Source of the DNA: Opitutus terrae PB90-1
GTDB lineage: Bacteria > Verrucomicrobiota > Verrucomicrobiia > Opitutales > Opitutaceae
DNA length: 64,000 nt
Assembly: GCF_000019965.1 (NCBI RefSeq)
Contig: NC_010571.1
Coordinates: 3,481,001 to 3,545,000 of the forward strand
Direction of reading: 5' to 3'
Positions 15,053-23,144 of the stretch are shown here, in pieces. Numbering within the stretch: position 1 is the stretch's first letter; each line of letters begins with the position of its first letter. The notes under the pieces are model-generated. The model saw only the letters and a list, made by a program, of their open reading frames with translations. It searched no databases and had not been told where the DNA came from. A program made the position numbers and the translations under genes.

Positions 15053-15070
15053 AGCGGGTACTTTCCCGCT
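15053..15070. promoter_or_regulatory. Inverted repeat upstream of the 630-aa secreted protein gene
   Basis: A perfect 6-bp inverted repeat AGCGGG...CCCGCT with a six-base loop lies 8 bp before the 24-bp shared element. It has no T-run on the plus strand, so it is a weak candidate terminator for ugd or an operator. Confidence 0.35.
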
Positions 15071-15077
15071 GGACGCC

Positions 15078-15101
15078 TAGGGTTTTTATCCTATTTTTTA
15101 C
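15078..15101 (+). promoter_or_regulatory. 24-bp element shared with the promoter region of the giant surface protein gene
   Basis: The sequence reads TAGGGT, four variable bases, A, C/T, CCTATTTTT, C/T, AC. The first 16 bp form an imperfect palindrome TAGG..CCTA. Eighteen of the 20 non-spacer positions are identical to the copy at 23121-23144 on the other strand, the two differences both being C/T. It ends 16 bp before the ATG at 15118. It could contain a -10 box (TATCCT) or bind a regulator. Confidence 0.6.
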
Positions 15102-15117: not shown

Positions 15118-17010
15118 ATGAACTTGCCCCGTTTGTTGGCGTCGTGTCGGTTCGCGCGTTTCGCTTGGCCCCTCGTCATCGCGATCGCTTTTGTGGCAGT
15201 CCCGGTCCACGGACAGGACGATGATCCCGCCGGCACGCCGAGCTATGTCGTCTACACTCCTGACGAGGTGATGCCGGTGCAAGGGCCGGCGCCCCTGCAG
15301 TTCAGCTATCAGCTGACGATCACCTCACCGACCGGCATGCCGGCGAACACGAACGCGACGGTGACCGTCGTGGGTGAAGCGACACTCGCGCCGGCGGCGG
15401 TGCCGCTCGCAACGGCAAGCGGGTTCGTCACCTTCAGCGCGGCGACGCTCGAATTCAGCGGACCACAGCAGTCGAAGACCATCACAGTCCAGCTGCGGAT
15501 TCCGAGCGGCACGGTGGAAGGGCAGTTCAGTTTTCACATCAGCACGACCGGCTGGCCGAGCGGGCACGCGATTCGGGACAACGGTACGGATGTGAACATG
15601 ACGGTGACGTTGCCGTTGCCGGTGACGGCTCCGCTGGTGACGATCGAGAGCCCGGCTCCGAATGCCACGTACAACTATGTGGCGGGCGGAAGTCCGACCC
15701 TGGTGCCGGTCACGGTGAAAGCAGTGGCGGCGGCGAATACCACGGTACAGCAAGTCGCGGCGTGGGTGCGGGCGGTGAATGATGCTGGCGTCGAATTTTT
15801 GTCCGAAGCGCTGAACCTTTCGGTGTCAGGGACGGGAATGTCGCAGGCGACCGGAACGCTCAGCTACCCGGTGACGGAGCCTGGCACCTATACGATCTCG
15901 GCCACCGCCAAGGATAATCTCGATGGGGCCGCGACCGATTCGCTGGCCTTCATCGTCACCCGCACCGTGCCGCCGCCGACGGTGGTGATTTCCCAGCCGA
16001 ACCAAACCAGCTTCGATTATCACCTCGGTGGGCCGGCGCTCTCCATTCCGTTCGCGTTCGAAGCACGGAGCCAATTCGGCGGGATCAAGAGCATTGCGGT
16101 GACGCTCGACGGCCAATCGGTGCCTTTTTCCGCGCCTGCGCTCGGCGCGCTCGTGGTGACTGGCACGGGCACGCTCACGATCGCTGCGGGCGGAGACTAC
16201 GAACTGGTGGTCACGGCCAAGGATGACTATGGCACCGCGGTGGCGACAACGAGTTTTGTTGTCAATGCGATCTCGGACACGAACGAGCGGCCGGTTCGCG
16301 GCGTGGTGTTCTTCGACGTGAACGCCAACGGCGTGATGGACGGGGATGACTACGGCTTGCCCGGCATGAAAGTGCGGTTGGTAAACTTGTGGGGCCACAC
16401 GGCCAAGACCACCACCAGTGCGGACGGCGAGTATGTGTTCAACGCGAAGCCTGGCGTCTACGTGGTGTGGGTCGATTGCGTGGACGGCTTTGCGCCCACG
16501 ACCTTGATTGCGCATCCGGTCGTGGTCTACCAATCGGCCGTCGACGTGGCCGACACGGGGTTCAAGCTTAGCTTCCTGGATCTGATGGGCATGCGCGCCG
16601 AAGGGAAGTCGCATGGCTTCTGGAAAAACAACGTGGACAAGGCCATTTCCGGCAAGAAGGGCGCGCAGGTTCCCGCTGCGTCGGTGCGGGCCTACACCAC
16701 GCAGCTCGGCGATCTCGCGCTCTCGCCCTTCGATGCGCTGACGATGCCGGCGGCATTAACCACACTCAGCTCCTCCAGCTCAAAACCGAAGGCGCTGCTG
16801 GCCAAGCAACTGCTCGCGGCCGAATACAACTACGCCAACGGTGCCTACATCGACGACAACGCGGCGCTCACGTATGCGTTCATTTACTGGGGCGAGCACG
16901 TGATGAAAAACGCGGACAGCCTGTCCCGCGTTTATGTGCTCTGGGCCAAGGATTGGTTCGATGCCTACAACAACAGTGAAGGCGGCCGGATCCGCGGCTC
17001 CCTGCTGTAG
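15118..17010 (+). CDS. Secreted protein with SdrD-B-like domain and C-terminal GFWKN segment
   Basis: I do not recognise a named family for this 630-aa protein. It has a signal peptide (about residues 1-32, ending AVPVHG-Q). Several Ig-like beta-sandwich segments rich in Thr/Val follow (roughly 40-380). An SdrD-B/carboxypeptidase-like repeat domain, GVVFFDVNANGVMDGDDYG, starts near residue 394 and includes a GEYVF strand. The last ~130 residues begin with SHGFWKNNVDKA near residue 498 and are helical with many Tyr/Ala/Asp. Metal binding by the Asp/Asn-rich loop is plausible. No PEP-CTERM, LPXTG or beta-barrel is seen at the C-terminus. It is convergent with the giant repeat protein gene, and both share an upstream element, which suggests co-regulated surface proteins. 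Confidence 0.75.
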   Translation: MNLPRLLASCRFARFAWPLVIAIAFVAVPVHGQDDDPAGTPSYVVYTPDEVMPVQGPAPLQFSYQLTITSPTGMPANTNATVTVVGEATLAPAAVPLATASGFVTFSAATLEFSGPQQSKTITVQLRIPSGTVEGQFSFHISTTGWPSGHAIRDNGTDVNMTVTLPLPVTAPLVTIESPAPNATYNYVAGGSPTLVPVTVKAVAAANTTVQQVAAWVRAVNDAGVEFLSEALNLSVSGTGMSQATGTLSYPVTEPGTYTISATAKDNLDGAATDSLAFIVTRTVPPPTVVISQPNQTSFDYHLGGPALSIPFAFEARSQFGGIKSIAVTLDGQSVPFSAPALGALVVTGTGTLTIAAGGDYELVVTAKDDYGTAVATTSFVVNAISDTNERPVRGVVFFDVNANGVMDGDDYGLPGMKVRLVNLWGHTAKTTTSADGEYVFNAKPGVYVVWVDCVDGFAPTTLIAHPVVVYQSAVDVADTGFKLSFLDLMGMRAEGKSHGFWKNNVDKAISGKKGAQVPAASVRAYTTQLGDLALSPFDALTMPAALTTLSSSSSKPKALLAKQLLAAEYNYANGAYIDDNAALTYAFIYWGEHVMKNADSLSRVYVLWAKDWFDAYNNSEGGRIRGSLL

Positions 17011-17036
17011 TTGCTGGTGAGTCGGTCCGGATTTGG

Positions 17037-17072
17037 GTGAGGCCGGATCCCGGTGGTCCGGCCTCACTGTTT
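17037..17072 (+). terminator. Hairpin terminator after the 630-aa secreted protein gene
   Basis: An 11-bp perfect stem, GTGAGGCCGGA paired with TCCGGCCTCAC, with a nine-base loop, starts 26 bp after the stop codon. The following bases TGTTTG are only weakly T-rich. Confidence 0.65.
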
Positions 17073-17359: not shown

Positions 17360-20300
17360 TCAGACCCTGCGGTGTTCGCGACGGTAGCGACGGTAGATGA
17401 ACACTCCCGCGCTCATCCCCAGCAGCAGCGCGCCGTAAAACGAGGGCTCTGGGACGGGCCGGATCTGGTGATCTTCGAAGCCAGGATAGTAGTTGGTCCA
17501 CGCCGTGTTGCTGCCATCCGCCGAAAGCGGGTCACCTTCAAAGTGCACCTGGTTCTGCGGAGCTGAGCCGGTGGCGTTGAAGATCGCGCCGAGGCCGGCG
17601 CCGTTGTTCTGATGGAAGCTCGAGTTGGCGAACAGAAAGTCGACTTCGCTGCTCCAGTTGCGAACGGTCAGCGTGGCGCCTGCGGCGATGTAGATATTGG
17701 TCGCGTTCAGGACCGAGGCGGCGCCGGTGCCGAAATCGAGGATCGTGTCGGCGGTGATGTTGAGTGTGCCGACATTGATGGTGGAGGCATTGAGGAACAA
17801 AGTTCCGCCAGCGAGTTGGAGCGTGCCCAAGCTGAGGGACGAGGCGAGCGAGCCGCCCTGAAACTCGAGCGTACCATCGGTGAGCTTTACGGTGCCGGAG
17901 AAATCGAACAACCCGGTGTTCGCGGCGCTGGTGAAGGTGAACGTGCCCACGCCCAATTTTTCGAACAGCCCCGTCCCGGCCAATTGTCCGGAGAAACTAT
18001 CGGCGCCAGCATGGTTGACCCGCAGCGTGGTGCCGCTGGCGAGGCTGACCAGCCCGGCGCCGGTCAGTTCGCCGATCTGGTTCGTGTTGCCGCTGCCCGA
18101 GAGCGCGAGCGTGGCGCCGCTGGCGACGCTGACGGCGTTTGTCTGCGCGCCTAGCGTGTTGTTCGCGACCAACGCGACGGTGCCGGCCTGAACGTCGAGA
18201 CTGCCGGTGAACGTGTTGCTGCCGGAGAGCGAGAGCGTGCCGCTGTCCACTTTGGCGATACCAAGCGTGCCCGCGCCGCTGTTGCTGATTCCGCCGGTGA
18301 TGATGGTATTGCCGGCGCCGCCCACGGTGAGCGTCTGGGTCGTCGCCGCGCCAGCCGTGCCGACGACCGAGCCGAAAACGGTCAGCGTGCTCCCGGCATC
18401 GGACTTGATCGCAGCGCTGTCGGCCAGCGTGACGCGGCCCGACCAGGAATTGCCGCCGGAGACGTTGTGCAGCGCGCCGAGCGAGTTGTAGCCCGCGCCG
18501 CTCAGCACGAGATATTCGTTCGGGAACGTGATGCTGCCCGAGTTGGGCTGCAGTTCCAGCGTAGCGCCGTTGCTGACGATCGTCTGCGCCGCTTCGGAGG
18601 TGCCGTTCGCGATCTGGCCAAGCGAGTAGTCATCGCGAATCCGCAGGATGCCATTGCGTATCTCAGTCGTGCCGCTGTAGCCGGTGGTATTGTCGGACGA
18701 CAGGATCATCGTGCCGGCGCCGTCCTTGATGAACGAACCGCCATACAGGCTGGCGGAGAAATTCAGCGTGCTGCCACCCGCCACGTTGATCGTCCGCGCC
18801 GGCCCGCCGATATTGTTCAAGTGCAGCAGGCCGCTGATGGTCGATGTCGCGGCGGTCGCCACGTCGATGTCGGCGCCGGAAGTGACGCCGCCAAGCGAAA
18901 GGATGCCCTGGTTGGTGCCGACCGTGCTGACCGTGCCGCCGTTGAGCACGAGATGGCCAATCGTGTCCGCCTTGCCCCATGTTCCGAGATCGAGCGTGCC
19001 ATCGGAATTGATGGTGACGTTCACCGTATCGGCGATTTGGTCGCTGTAACGAAGCTCGACCCGCGCCGTGGACGTGGTGGAACCGGTGCCGATGACGAGG
19101 TCGCCGCGCACGGCGGTGTTGATCGTGTCGATGAATCCGCTGCCCGTATCCAAACCGCCGGGCTCGACCTGGAGCCGCAGCACGCCGCGCTCGAGCGTGG
19201 TTTGGCCCGTGTAGAAATTCCTCAAGCCGGCGAATGTGTACCGCGTCGTGTCGTCACCGCCGCGCAGCGTGACCGAACCGGTATCGCCGCTGGTGGAGCC
19301 AATCATGCTGGCGATTGCGATGTTGCCGGTGCCGGAGAGCGTGAGGTCGTGATGGTTGAGGTCGAGATGAAGAGAAGTGTGCTGAAAAAGCCACGGCGCC
19401 AGATACAGGACATCGGCCGAGCCGGCGGCGCCGGCGTTGGTGATCAGCGTGTCGGATCCGAGGCTGATGTTGCCGGACCACGTATTGATGCCGCCGAGTG
19501 CGCGCAGCGCGCCGACACCGCCGTCGCCGGTGCCGTTCAAGGCGAGCGTCTGCAGCGTGGCGGCCGTGGTGCCGTATCCGCTGGTCGCGGAACTTTGCAC
19601 CGCGAGCGTCGCGCCTGAGGCGACGCTGACCACGGTGGTCGGGCTAACCAGCCCGGAGTAGTTGCCCAAGGCTGTGAACCCGCCTTCGACCGTCGAGCCC
19701 GACGCGCGCAGCGTGCCCGCGTTGACCGTGACTCCGCCGGTGAAGCCGCTGTTGGTACCGGAGAGTGCGAGCGTGCCGGCGCCGGTCTTCACGAGGCTGC
19801 CGGAACCGGAAAGATTGCTCGAGACAGTGAGGTCGCTAGCGGCGTTGCTGGAGTTGGCGATGTCGAAGGTGCGACTCGAGCTGCCGAGCGCGAGGGTGCC
19901 GGCGCCGGCGATGGTGGCGCCTAGCGGGTTGTTGGTGGCATCGTAGCTCACGTTGCCCGCGAGCGTCAGCGTGCTGCCGCTGCCGAGGCTGACGGTGTTC
20001 GTTGAAGTGCTGGTCGCGCCGGCGCCGCCGAAGGTGAGCGACTGGATCGTCTGGCTGACCGAGTTGTTGGTGGCAAACGTGGCAGTCGTGCCGGCGGTGG
20101 TGGCGTTGACCACCACATTCGGCGTCGCGTAGGTACCGAGCGCGTTGGTGGCACCGACGGCGAACGTGCCGCGATTGACCACGACGTTGCCGCCGCTCCA
20201 GAGCGTGGCGGCGGCGTTGAGGGTCAAGGTGCCGGCGCCGACCTTGGTAAGCGTGCGGCCGGTGCCGTTGTCGGAGAGGCCGGACGTGAGCGTGATGTTG

Positions 20301-23077
20301 CCGACGCCGCCCATCGCGACGTCATTGGTGAGCAAGACCCCGCCCGCGTAAGAAACCGCCGTAGCGCTTGAGTTGGTGAGCGCACCGCTGGAGCTCACGC
20401 CGCTGCCCTGCAGGGATAGCGCCTCGGCGTTGGCGAGCGTATAGCCGTTCAAATCGAGCGCGCCACCGGCGTTGACCACGGTGCCGGCCGCGATCGTGCC
20501 GAGCGGACCGTTGCCCGCCGAGCCGGCGCTGCCGAGCTTGAGCGTGCCAAGATTGATGGTCGTGGAGCCGGTGTAGGAATTGTTGCCGGAAAGCGTGACG
20601 GCGCCGGGGCCGTTTTGCACGACCGTGCCGGAGCCGGAGATCGTGCCGGAATAAGTGAAGTCGTTGGAGCGGTTGAAGACCAGCGAGCCGTTGTTGACGA
20701 TGCTGCTGCCGGCGAGCGAACCGGTTGTGCCGCCGGCGCCCAGTTGGAGCGTGCCCTGTAAGATGGTCGTCGCGCCGGTGTAGGTGTTCGTGCCAGTCAA
20801 CGTGAAGGTGCCGGAGCCGGCCTTCGTCAGCGTGCCGGAGCCGGAGATGGTGCCGGCAAACGTCGAGGAATTGCTGGCGGCACCGACGGTGAGCGCACCG
20901 GACGTGCCGAGAGCGACGTTGCCGGTGCCGGCGAGCCGATCAATGGTCTCGGCGAAATTGTTCAGGTCGAGCAAACCGTCCCCGTTGATGGTGAACGACG
21001 TGGCGGAATCAGGGATCTGTTCGTTGGCGCCGAGCCGGAGGATCGCGCTGCTGGCGAGCCCGCTGCTGTTGCCCACGACGATCGCGCCATTGCCACCAAC
21101 CGCGCCAGTGCCGGCGGTTTTCGAGAGGAGGACGGTGCCGTCGTCGACGAGGAGATTGTTGAAATAGTTGGCGCTGCTGCCGCTGAACGTGAGCGTGCCC
21201 GCGCCGGTCTTGGTGAATCCGCCGGCGCCGTTGGCGGCACCGCTCATCACGACGTTGCCGGCACCGCCGACCGTGACGGTGTTCGCGCCGATCTGGGGAT
21301 TGCCGCTGAGCGTGAGCGTCCCGGCGTCCGCGATGATGCTGGTGTTGCCGTTGAACGTGAGCTGGCCTGCGAGCGTGTTGCTGCCAGAAATATTACGGAA
21401 CGCGCCGGTGCCGGTGTCGCCCGTGCCGTCGACGCTGAAGCCGCCCTGGTTGACCGTGATGCCGCCTTGCAGTGCGAGCGTGGCGCCCGACGCGATGCTG
21501 TGGCCCCAGGTGCCGGAGGCGCCGAGCGCGCTGCTGTTGGCGAGAACGAGCGTGCCGGCGCTGACGGTCGTCGGCGCAGAATAGGTGTTCGCGCCCTGCA
21601 GCACGAGCGTGCCGCTGCCGGCTTTCACGATCCCGCTGTAGTAGGGCTCGGTGACCACGCCGGCGAAGGTCGTGGTGCCGGTGTTGGCGACCGTGAGGGT
21701 GCGCGTGCCACCGCCGAGATTGATGCTGCCGTTGAACGTCAGGTTTTGCGTGCCGCCGATGGTGAAATCGCCGCCGATCGTGAGATTGTTCGCCAGCGTG
21801 CGCGCGGCACCGGCGGCTTGAACGGTCGTGCCGCTGGCGATCGAGAGCGTGCCGGTGCCGGCGGCGGTGTTGCTGCCGAAAGCGAGCGTGCCGGAGGAAA
21901 GCGCCGTGCCCCCGGAATACGTGTTGGCGCCGGAGAGCGTCACGGTGCCCGTGCCCGTCTTCGTCAGCAATCCGCTGCCGCTGATCACACCGCTGAAGGT
22001 GAGACTCGACGTGCCGTCGGCGTTGAAACTGGTGGCCTTGCCGAGCGTGATGCCGCCGCTGAACGTGCCGGTGCCACTGGTCAGGTTGCTGCCCAGCGTG
22101 GTGGTGCCCGTGCCTTGGTTGGCCACTGTGATCGCTCGGCCCACCGTGACGCCCGAGGTGTTGAGGAGCAGGGCGGTGTTGCTCGTGCCGGTGGCAGCGG
22201 TGTTGAGTGTCACGGCCGAGGTCGCATTGCCCAGCGAGCCGGCGGCTCCGCTCGGGGCGTTGGCGTTCAGCAGCAGCTTGCCCTGCGCGATGGTGGTGGT
22301 CCCGGAATACGTGTTCGCGCCAGACAAAGTCAGCGTGCCGTTGCCCGTTTTGATCAGGTTGCCGGCGCCGTTGCCGCCGTTGCTGATCACGCCCGAAATC
22401 GTCGCCGAGCCCGAGCCGGCGATGGTCAGAGTGCGGCCCGTGTTGTTGTTCGAAAGCGCGACGGCGCCGATCGTGCGGCTGCCGGTGCCGGAGAGCGTGA
22501 GGGTGCGGTTGCCACCGCTCACGAGCAACGTGCCGCCGGAACTGCCGAGCGCGATCGCGCCCGGGCCGTCAAGCGTCAGATTGCGATTGAGGGTTACCGC
22601 GTTGAAGAGCAGGCCGCCGGTCGCGGCATTGAACGTCTGGTTGCTGGTGCCGACTGCTACGATGCTGGAGAACGTCTGCGTCTCCGCGTCGTTGTTCACC
22701 ACGCCGGCATTCGTCAGAGTCAGCGTCGATCCACTGAACGTGAAAGCGTTGACTCCGGCGGCGGAGTTGAAGGTGACGCCCTGGACCGTGCGGGCTGCGC
22801 CGAGCGAAATCGAAAACTGGTTGTTGGCGAGGCTGGCGTCGAAGACGAGTGAATCGTTCGAACCGGGCGCCGTGTTGGGCGACCAATTGTTCGCGGTGGC
22901 CCACGCACCGGTGTTGGCGCCGCCGTCCCAGGTGATCGTGGCGGCTGGTAGGGAAAGGGCGGCAAAGGCGAATCCAAGTACGCTCAGACGAACGCCGCAC
23001 GCGAGCACACCGCGCCGTTGCCGGGCGGAAAACGGGTTCGTCAACCGACGAAGAAGCGTGGTGTGTGGCTGGCTCAC
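17360..23077 (-). CDS. Giant PEP-CTERM surface protein with autotransporter-associated beta-strand repeats
   Basis: About 1,905 residues. A signal peptide core (GVRLSVLGFAFAALSLPAA) is followed by ATITWDGG and about eleven PATR-type repeats of the form GAGTLTLSGANTYSGTTTI...GTL.LG, predicting a long right-handed beta-helix. The passenger is rich in Gly, Thr, Ser and Asn and has almost no Cys. There is no beta-barrel domain. The C-terminus is a PEP-CTERM signal: VPEPS (17441-17455), a hydrophobic span GALLLGMSAGVFIY, then an Arg-rich tail. Exosortase cleavage and surface attachment would be expected; no exosortase gene is in the window. The frame extends to a TTG at 23119, but that start abuts the regulatory element, so the GTG at 23077 is preferred. 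Neither start has a clear ribosome-binding site. Confidence 0.85.
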   Translation of the reverse strand: MSQPHTTLLRRLTNPFSARQRRGVLACGVRLSVLGFAFAALSLPAATITWDGGANTGAWATANNWSPNTAPGSNDSLVFDASLANNQFSISLGAARTVQGVTFNSAAGVNAFTFSGSTLTLTNAGVVNNDAETQTFSSIVAVGTSNQTFNAATGGLLFNAVTLNRNLTLDGPGAIALGSSGGTLLVSGGNRTLTLSGTGSRTIGAVALSNNNTGRTLTIAGSGSATISGVISNGGNGAGNLIKTGNGTLTLSGANTYSGTTTIAQGKLLLNANAPSGAAGSLGNATSAVTLNTAATGTSNTALLLNTSGVTVGRAITVANQGTGTTTLGSNLTSGTGTFSGGITLGKATSFNADGTSSLTFSGVISGSGLLTKTGTGTVTLSGANTYSGGTALSSGTLAFGSNTAAGTGTLSIASGTTVQAAGAARTLANNLTIGGDFTIGGTQNLTFNGSINLGGGTRTLTVANTGTTTFAGVVTEPYYSGIVKAGSGTLVLQGANTYSAPTTVSAGTLVLANSSALGASGTWGHSIASGATLALQGGITVNQGGFSVDGTGDTGTGAFRNISGSNTLAGQLTFNGNTSIIADAGTLTLSGNPQIGANTVTVGGAGNVVMSGAANGAGGFTKTGAGTLTFSGSSANYFNNLLVDDGTVLLSKTAGTGAVGGNGAIVVGNSSGLASSAILRLGANEQIPDSATSFTINGDGLLDLNNFAETIDRLAGTGNVALGTSGALTVGAASNSSTFAGTISGSGTLTKAGSGTFTLTGTNTYTGATTILQGTLQLGAGGTTGSLAGSSIVNNGSLVFNRSNDFTYSGTISGSGTVVQNGPGAVTLSGNNSYTGSTTINLGTLKLGSAGSAGNGPLGTIAAGTVVNAGGALDLNGYTLANAEALSLQGSGVSSSGALTNSSATAVSYAGGVLLTNDVAMGGVGNITLTSGLSDNGTGRTLTKVGAGTLTLNAAATLWSGGNVVVNRGTFAVGATNALGTYATPNVVVNATTAGTTATFATNNSVSQTIQSLTFGGAGATSTSTNTVSLGSGSTLTLAGNVSYDATNNPLGATIAGAGTLALGSSSRTFDIANSSNAASDLTVSSNLSGSGSLVKTGAGTLALSGTNSGFTGGVTVNAGTLRASGSTVEGGFTALGNYSGLVSPTTVVSVASGATLAVQSSATSGYGTTAATLQTLALNGTGDGGVGALRALGGINTWSGNISLGSDTLITNAGAAGSADVLYLAPWLFQHTSLHLDLNHHDLTLSGTGNIAIASMIGSTSGDTGSVTLRGGDDTTRYTFAGLRNFYTGQTTLERGVLRLQVEPGGLDTGSGFIDTINTAVRGDLVIGTGSTTSTARVELRYSDQIADTVNVTINSDGTLDLGTWGKADTIGHLVLNGGTVSTVGTNQGILSLGGVTSGADIDVATAATSTISGLLHLNNIGGPARTINVAGGSTLNFSASLYGGSFIKDGAGTMILSSDNTTGYSGTTEIRNGILRIRDDYSLGQIANGTSEAAQTIVSNGATLELQPNSGSITFPNEYLVLSGAGYNSLGALHNVSGGNSWSGRVTLADSAAIKSDAGSTLTVFGSVVGTAGAATTQTLTVGGAGNTIITGGISNSGAGTLGIAKVDSGTLSLSGSNTFTGSLDVQAGTVALVANNTLGAQTNAVSVASGATLALSGSGNTNQIGELTGAGLVSLASGTTLRVNHAGADSFSGQLAGTGLFEKLGVGTFTFTSAANTGLFDFSGTVKLTDGTLEFQGGSLASSLSLGTLQLAGGTLFLNASTINVGTLNITADTILDFGTGAASVLNATNIYIAAGATLTVRNWSSEVDFLFANSSFHQNNGAGLGAIFNATGSAPQNQVHFEGDPLSADGSNTAWTNYYPGFEDHQIRPVPEPSFYGALLLGMSAGVFIYRRYRREHRRV
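17855..22345 (-). repeat. Coding repeats of the PEP-CTERM surface protein
   Basis: Around eleven imperfect units of about 30-35 codons, recognisable by GTL(T/A)LSG.NTY(S/T)G..T(I/V)..GTL, are spread irregularly through the gene, separated by longer non-repeat stretches. Boundaries are approximate. Confidence 0.7.
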
Positions 23078-23120
23078 GTTGACCGCCGACAGGCAAGCGC
23101 GTGACCGGGGTAGGGTCAAT

Positions 23121-23144
23121 GTGAAAAATAGGGTATCGACCCTA
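23121..23144 (-). promoter_or_regulatory. 24-bp element shared with the 630-aa secreted protein gene
   Basis: Read on the minus strand it is TAGGGT-CGAT-ACCCTATTTTTCAC, whose first 16 bp are a perfect palindrome apart from the central four bases. A further TAGGGT half-site lies in direct orientation at 23111-23116 on the plus strand. It matches 15078-15101 in sequence and in orientation relative to the gene. It lies 43 bp upstream of the GTG at 23077 and directly against the alternative TTG start, which argues for the GTG. Confidence 0.6.

Follow-up and report, generated by a model that had tools for sequence, protein, structure and literature searches.

A 16-bp palindrome, TAGGGT-N4-ACCCTA, which appears to recur across the Opitutaceae upstream of genes for exported proteins, is probably the operator of a putative dimeric transcription factor that would control surface-protein genes and probably some exopolysaccharide genes. 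This reading was derived from the two-fold symmetry of the site, its preferred spacing to a promoter element and its location in promoters. Sequence comparison yields the motif and shows that it is located in non-coding DNA, has a preferred spacing to a -35 element, targets a particular kind of gene and accompanies a conserved gene pair. The window, i.e. the whole stretch of 64,000 nt that was analysed, corresponds to positions 3481001-3545000 of the single contig of the genome. It contains two copies of the palindrome, each embedded in the 24-bp element TAGGGTNNNNAYCCTATTTTTYAC, together with the following features.

15070-15075, forward strand: predicted -35 element TGGACG, 2 nt ahead of the palindrome (tentative, from sequence and inference)
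15078-15101, forward strand: 24-bp element, copy 1, TAGGGTTTTTATCCTATTTTTTAC, as read in the window sequence
15078-15093, forward strand: putative operator palindrome, copy 1, TAGGGTTTTTATCCTA, 11 of 12 consensus positions; equivalent sites in the homologues of genomes G586, G228 and G627
15092-15097, forward strand: predicted -10 element TATTTT, spacer of 16; it overlaps both the T-tract and the last bases of the palindrome (tentative, from sequence and inference)
15094-15101, forward strand: T-rich 3' portion of the 24-bp element, copy 1
15118-17010, forward strand: 630-aa secreted protein with a signal peptide and an SdrD B-like domain
17036-17068, forward strand: strong intrinsic terminator-like hairpin of 14 pairs after the 630-aa gene
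17360-23077, reverse strand: giant PATR-repeat PEP-CTERM protein, start inferred from the -35 position
23091-23096, reverse strand: weak predicted -10 element TTGCCT, spacer of 17; T peak at equal spacing in aligned modules
23115-23119, reverse strand: -35 core TTGAC of the giant gene
23120-23128, reverse strand: T-rich 9-nt linker tttttcaca from palindrome to -35, including the T-rich part of the 24-bp element
23129-23144, reverse strand: putative operator palindrome, copy 2, TAGGGTCGATACCCTA, perfect
23144-23121, reverse strand: 24-bp element, copy 2, TAGGGTCGATACCCTATTTTTCAC, as read in the window sequence

The palindrome as the conserved unit

A preliminary description of this DNA had reported the shared 24-bp element at 15078-15101 on the forward and 23121-23144 on the reverse strand, without a third copy in the window. 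A pattern search of the 64,000 nt found it at exactly these two places, and allowing up to three mismatches revealed no further copy in the window or in the whole genome (5,957,605 bp, one contig). In 100 shuffles of the window, no match with at most three mismatches occurred, and the chance expectation for two exact copies is zero. As a general motif, the 24-bp element was dropped, since it has only these two genomic copies and shows no excess over the control in relatives. At one mismatch, a close variant of the element matched nothing further in 384 genomes of the class; at two mismatches, the matches across the order did not exceed the reversed control, and the two matches among all GTDB contigs were chance-like.

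The first 16 bp had rightly been described as palindromic, perfectly in copy 2 and with one mismatch in copy 1, and the four central bases differ between the copies (TTTT and CGAT). The T-rich part, in contrast, is not equally conserved as had been supposed, because conservation throughout the family is limited to the 16-bp palindrome. Comparison across genera therefore points to the two-fold symmetric core TAGGGT-N4-ACCCTA, rather than the 24-mer, as the conserved unit.

In other genera, variants of this core recur ahead of the genes for homologues of the 630-aa protein. In 14 regions upstream of such homologues, 17 sites matching at least 9 of 12 positions were found versus 1.5 in dinucleotide shuffles and three in 69 coding control windows; two of the 17 sit within the end of a UDP-glucose dehydrogenase gene. 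Random scatter or a location inside coding regions, which the preliminary description had named as evidence against its element, is not the pattern observed. Across 322 kb, comprising the window and the surroundings of the 630-aa gene's homologues, sites matching at least 10 of 12 positions were non-coding in 13 cases and coding in three, although only 10.2% of this DNA is non-coding. For 40 control palindromes with permuted half-sites, the means were 0.78 non-coding and 6.8 coding sites, never with more than three non-coding. The symmetric site thus accumulates in the non-coding DNA ahead of genes, as an operator of a dimeric transcription factor requires. Throughout the analysis, gene starts were assigned with simple rules, and some of the catalogued sites were gathered using the pattern itself. 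The core occurs only four times in the own genome at up to one mismatch, so the regulon here would be small or its remaining sites divergent.

Promoter architecture

The palindrome shows a preferred spacing to a promoter element. Among 76 distinct palindromes matching at least 11 of 12 positions, 11 are followed by TTGAC at 7-9 nt, where about 0.3 would be expected. The corresponding module, TAGGGN6CCCTA-N7-9-TTGAC, was matched 27 times in 24 genomes and 13 genera when 250 genomes of the family were searched, compared to five matches for the reversed control pattern in the same genomes. Among other families of the order, about 300 genomes gave two matches against three for the control, and the module therefore looks family-specific. 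An alignment anchored on TTGAC revealed a T peak at +27/+28, corresponding to a weak -10 element at a spacing of 16-17, which would place the operator centre near -51.5. The linker is rich in T, which occupies 17 of 27 modules at the third position and likewise in 17 of 27 at the fourth, and the start codon mostly follows 30-50 bp further on. Many exact palindromes in relatives do not have TTGAC at this distance, and the own genome contains the full module only once. A TATAAT -10 element overlapping the palindrome end appeared promising by eye and was rejected, as it is not general among the 76 palindromes.

Copy 2 follows the preferred spacing, with the order TAGGGTCGATACCCTA-tttttcaca-TTGACC, then the weak TTGCCT and then GTG at 23077. 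A genome of the same genus (G586) has TAGGGGCATCACCCTA-ttttccca-TTGACC ahead of its giant PEP-CTERM gene. The giant reading frame had been given a TTG start at 23119. Since this TTG forms the first bases of the TTGAC -35 hexamer, GTG at 23077-23075 is the better candidate and likely the start of the gene.

Copy 1 does not follow this spacing, having no TTGAC 7-9 nt downstream and an ATG 24 nt past the palindrome. At the equivalent place, the homologues in G586, G228 and G627 have the -35-like sequences TGGACA, TCGACA and TCGACT, respectively, so that TGGAC or TCGAC stands 2-3 nt ahead of the site, and TAT is retained at the site end. The palindrome of copy 1 thus probably fills the 16-bp spacer of a promoter TGGACG-N16-TATTTT, with the T-tract forming part of the -10 element. 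This promoter assignment is weak; if it holds, the T-tract common to both copies would play different roles in each.

Target genes and the conserved gene pair

Nearly all genes downstream of modules look exported. A PEP-CTERM tail ends 10 of the 20 complete downstream proteins, and one more passes TIGR02595 (11/20). The other proteins include a pilin-like protein. Palindromes without the TTGAC spacing precede outer-membrane-like genes, asparagine synthase genes and, in several genera, an exported-protein gene located after leuS.

The preliminary description had regarded the two genes as otherwise unrelated and conservation of the pair by descent as unlikely. This was wrong, because the pair is kept in six relatives: the homologue of the 630-aa gene adjoins a giant PEP-CTERM gene convergently in G586, as in the window, and divergently in G612, G188, G196, G013 and G035. 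In G649, the homologue of the 630-aa protein itself stands behind a module. Joint control of two functional partners accounts for the element that both genes carry.

Further sites were observed at other genes. In several genera, asparagine-synthase-like genes (MCGIAGF...; loci L104, L109, L140, L144, L148) have the palindrome at a distance of about 90-130 bp upstream, which suggests a connection with amidotransfer in exopolysaccharide or cell-wall synthesis. At 5023896 in the own genome (L087, 1501-1516), it is located 32 bp upstream of an exported-protein gene that follows leuS, and other genera have the same arrangement, again with a palindrome (L094, L103, L137). At 3548176 (L083, 1501-1516), about 3 kb beyond the window end, a gap contains a palindrome with two mismatches, TAGGGAGTGACCCCTA, and a gene of the exopolysaccharide region follows about 90 bp downstream. 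In G220 (L124, 1501-1560), two palindromes 43 bp apart, i.e. about four helical turns, precede a prepilin-like gene.

Alternative explanations

The preliminary description had proposed a dedicated regulator or sigma factor for surface proteins. The idea of a cis-regulatory site is upheld by its recurrence, mostly in non-coding DNA, upstream of exported genes. Recognition by a dedicated alternative sigma factor would also be compatible with the closeness of the element to genes and the narrow target class, but we consider it very improbable, given that the site has two-fold symmetry and is followed by a separate TTGAC and a weak -10 element at sigma-70 spacing. Moreover, sigma-54 -24(GG)/-12(GC) promoters in the modules reached at best 5-7 of 10 positions, no better than random window pieces. 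Without a signature above the control, a sigma-54 reading was rejected for the modules, and the sigma-54/PrsR control of proteobacterial PEP-CTERM genes does not apply here. Equally improbable is a post-transcriptional function as an RNA hairpin close to the ribosome-binding site. The palindrome does lie 0-30 nt ahead of the start codon in copy 1 and several relatives, but in the TTGAC class it is upstream of the -35 element and hence outside that transcript. Furthermore, changes at position 6 are mostly one-sided and not compensatory, and an Rfam search of the window returned nothing.

Slightly less improbable, and still unlikely, is that both elements are intrinsic terminators of upstream genes, each with a 6-bp stem, a 4-nt loop and a T-tract. 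Same-strand genes do lie upstream (UDP-glucose dehydrogenase and alanine racemase), and the predicted folds of -5.0 and -6.7 kcal/mol are followed by 5-6 T. However, these stems are weak compared to the 14 pairs of the real terminator at 17036-17068, a T-run is missing from most copies in relatives, and many copies are located between divergent genes. In addition, the sequence itself is conserved across genera beyond its pairing, and a -35 element stands 7-9 bp downstream. Hardly credible is the possibility that the copies, which are inverted relative to each other around the gene pair, are recombination sites or element ends flanking an invertible or mobile segment, because their central bases differ, the genes are divergent and unflanked in several relatives, and sites also stand singly at scattered surface genes.

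Proposed mechanism and candidate regulators

For the favoured operator, we infer that a protein binds it, whether control is positive or negative at a given gene, and to which family the regulator belongs. A dimeric factor would bind TAGGGT-N4-ACCCTA at exported-protein genes, and its regulon would comprise the giant PATR/PEP-CTERM proteins and their 630-aa partner as well as proteins resembling pilins or outer-membrane proteins; some exopolysaccharide genes would probably belong to it too. In the architecture of copy 2, the operator near -51.5 would be followed by the T-rich linker of 7-9 bp, TTGAC and the weak -10 element, and the factor may activate a sigma-70-type RNA polymerase at such promoters. 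At copy 1, with the operator inside the predicted -35/-10 spacer, the same protein would probably repress or act in a MerR-like manner. For this complete picture, a family-wide putative regulon with activation at -51.5 promoters and repression at spacer-embedded ones, covering PEP-CTERM/PATR and some exopolysaccharide genes, we regard the chances as even.

The own genome has 31 GerE-domain matches. A NarL-type response regulator in G126 (L207) has the palindrome and a T-run about 61 bp upstream, with a degraded version in G220 (L208); this may reflect autoregulation, or the gene may be a mere target. Its orthologue is absent from the motif-rich G646, and for the NarL-type regulators near sites and their orthologues, presence did not follow the motif across genomes. 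At 2883350 in the own genome (L076, 1501-1516), a palindrome with one mismatch lies between a NarL-type response-regulator gene, which is divergent and about 590 bp away, and another gene with a signal-peptidase-like region.

Relation to known systems

Operators of NarL/LuxR-type regulators, such as the PimM, DosR and RcsB boxes, are short GGG...CCC or TAGG...CCTA palindromes in promoters of activated genes. They resemble the site described here, but its half-site spacing is unlike that of each of these boxes. CRP/FNR-type operators consist of 5-bp half-sites, TGTGA or TTGAT, that are 6 bp apart. The same geometry is found in TAGGG-N6-CCCTA, although the half-site sequence differs and class I or class II operators are not usually centred near -51.5.

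The only cis-site of PEP-CTERM genes found described in the open-access literature is that of Haft et al. 2006 (PMC1569441), a 17-nt motif ending in TTTACA that is restricted to proteobacteria and followed, after about 63 nt, by a -24/-12 sigma-54 promoter, together with PrsK/PrsR. Both sites are short conserved non-coding DNA upstream of PEP-CTERM genes and near exopolysaccharide genes, and both are presumed activator sites. In contrast to the former, the site described here is a 16-bp palindrome, lies 7-9 bp from a TTGAC -35 element and appears to be confined to Opitutaceae. Haft et al. expected further motifs and stated control outside proteobacteria as an open point (PMC1569441). For a TAGGGT-N4-ACCCTA operator, no description was found in the open-access literature, subscription papers being outside the scope of the search.

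Many environmental bacteria use PEP-CTERM/exosortase systems to decorate their surface and matrix. If the proposed reading is true, it would represent a PEP-CTERM control circuit outside proteobacteria that is independent of sigma-54. The defined operator, its preferred -35 spacing and the list of targets could serve directly as bait in a search for the regulator, and the timing of surface-layer building in these bacteria would become testable.
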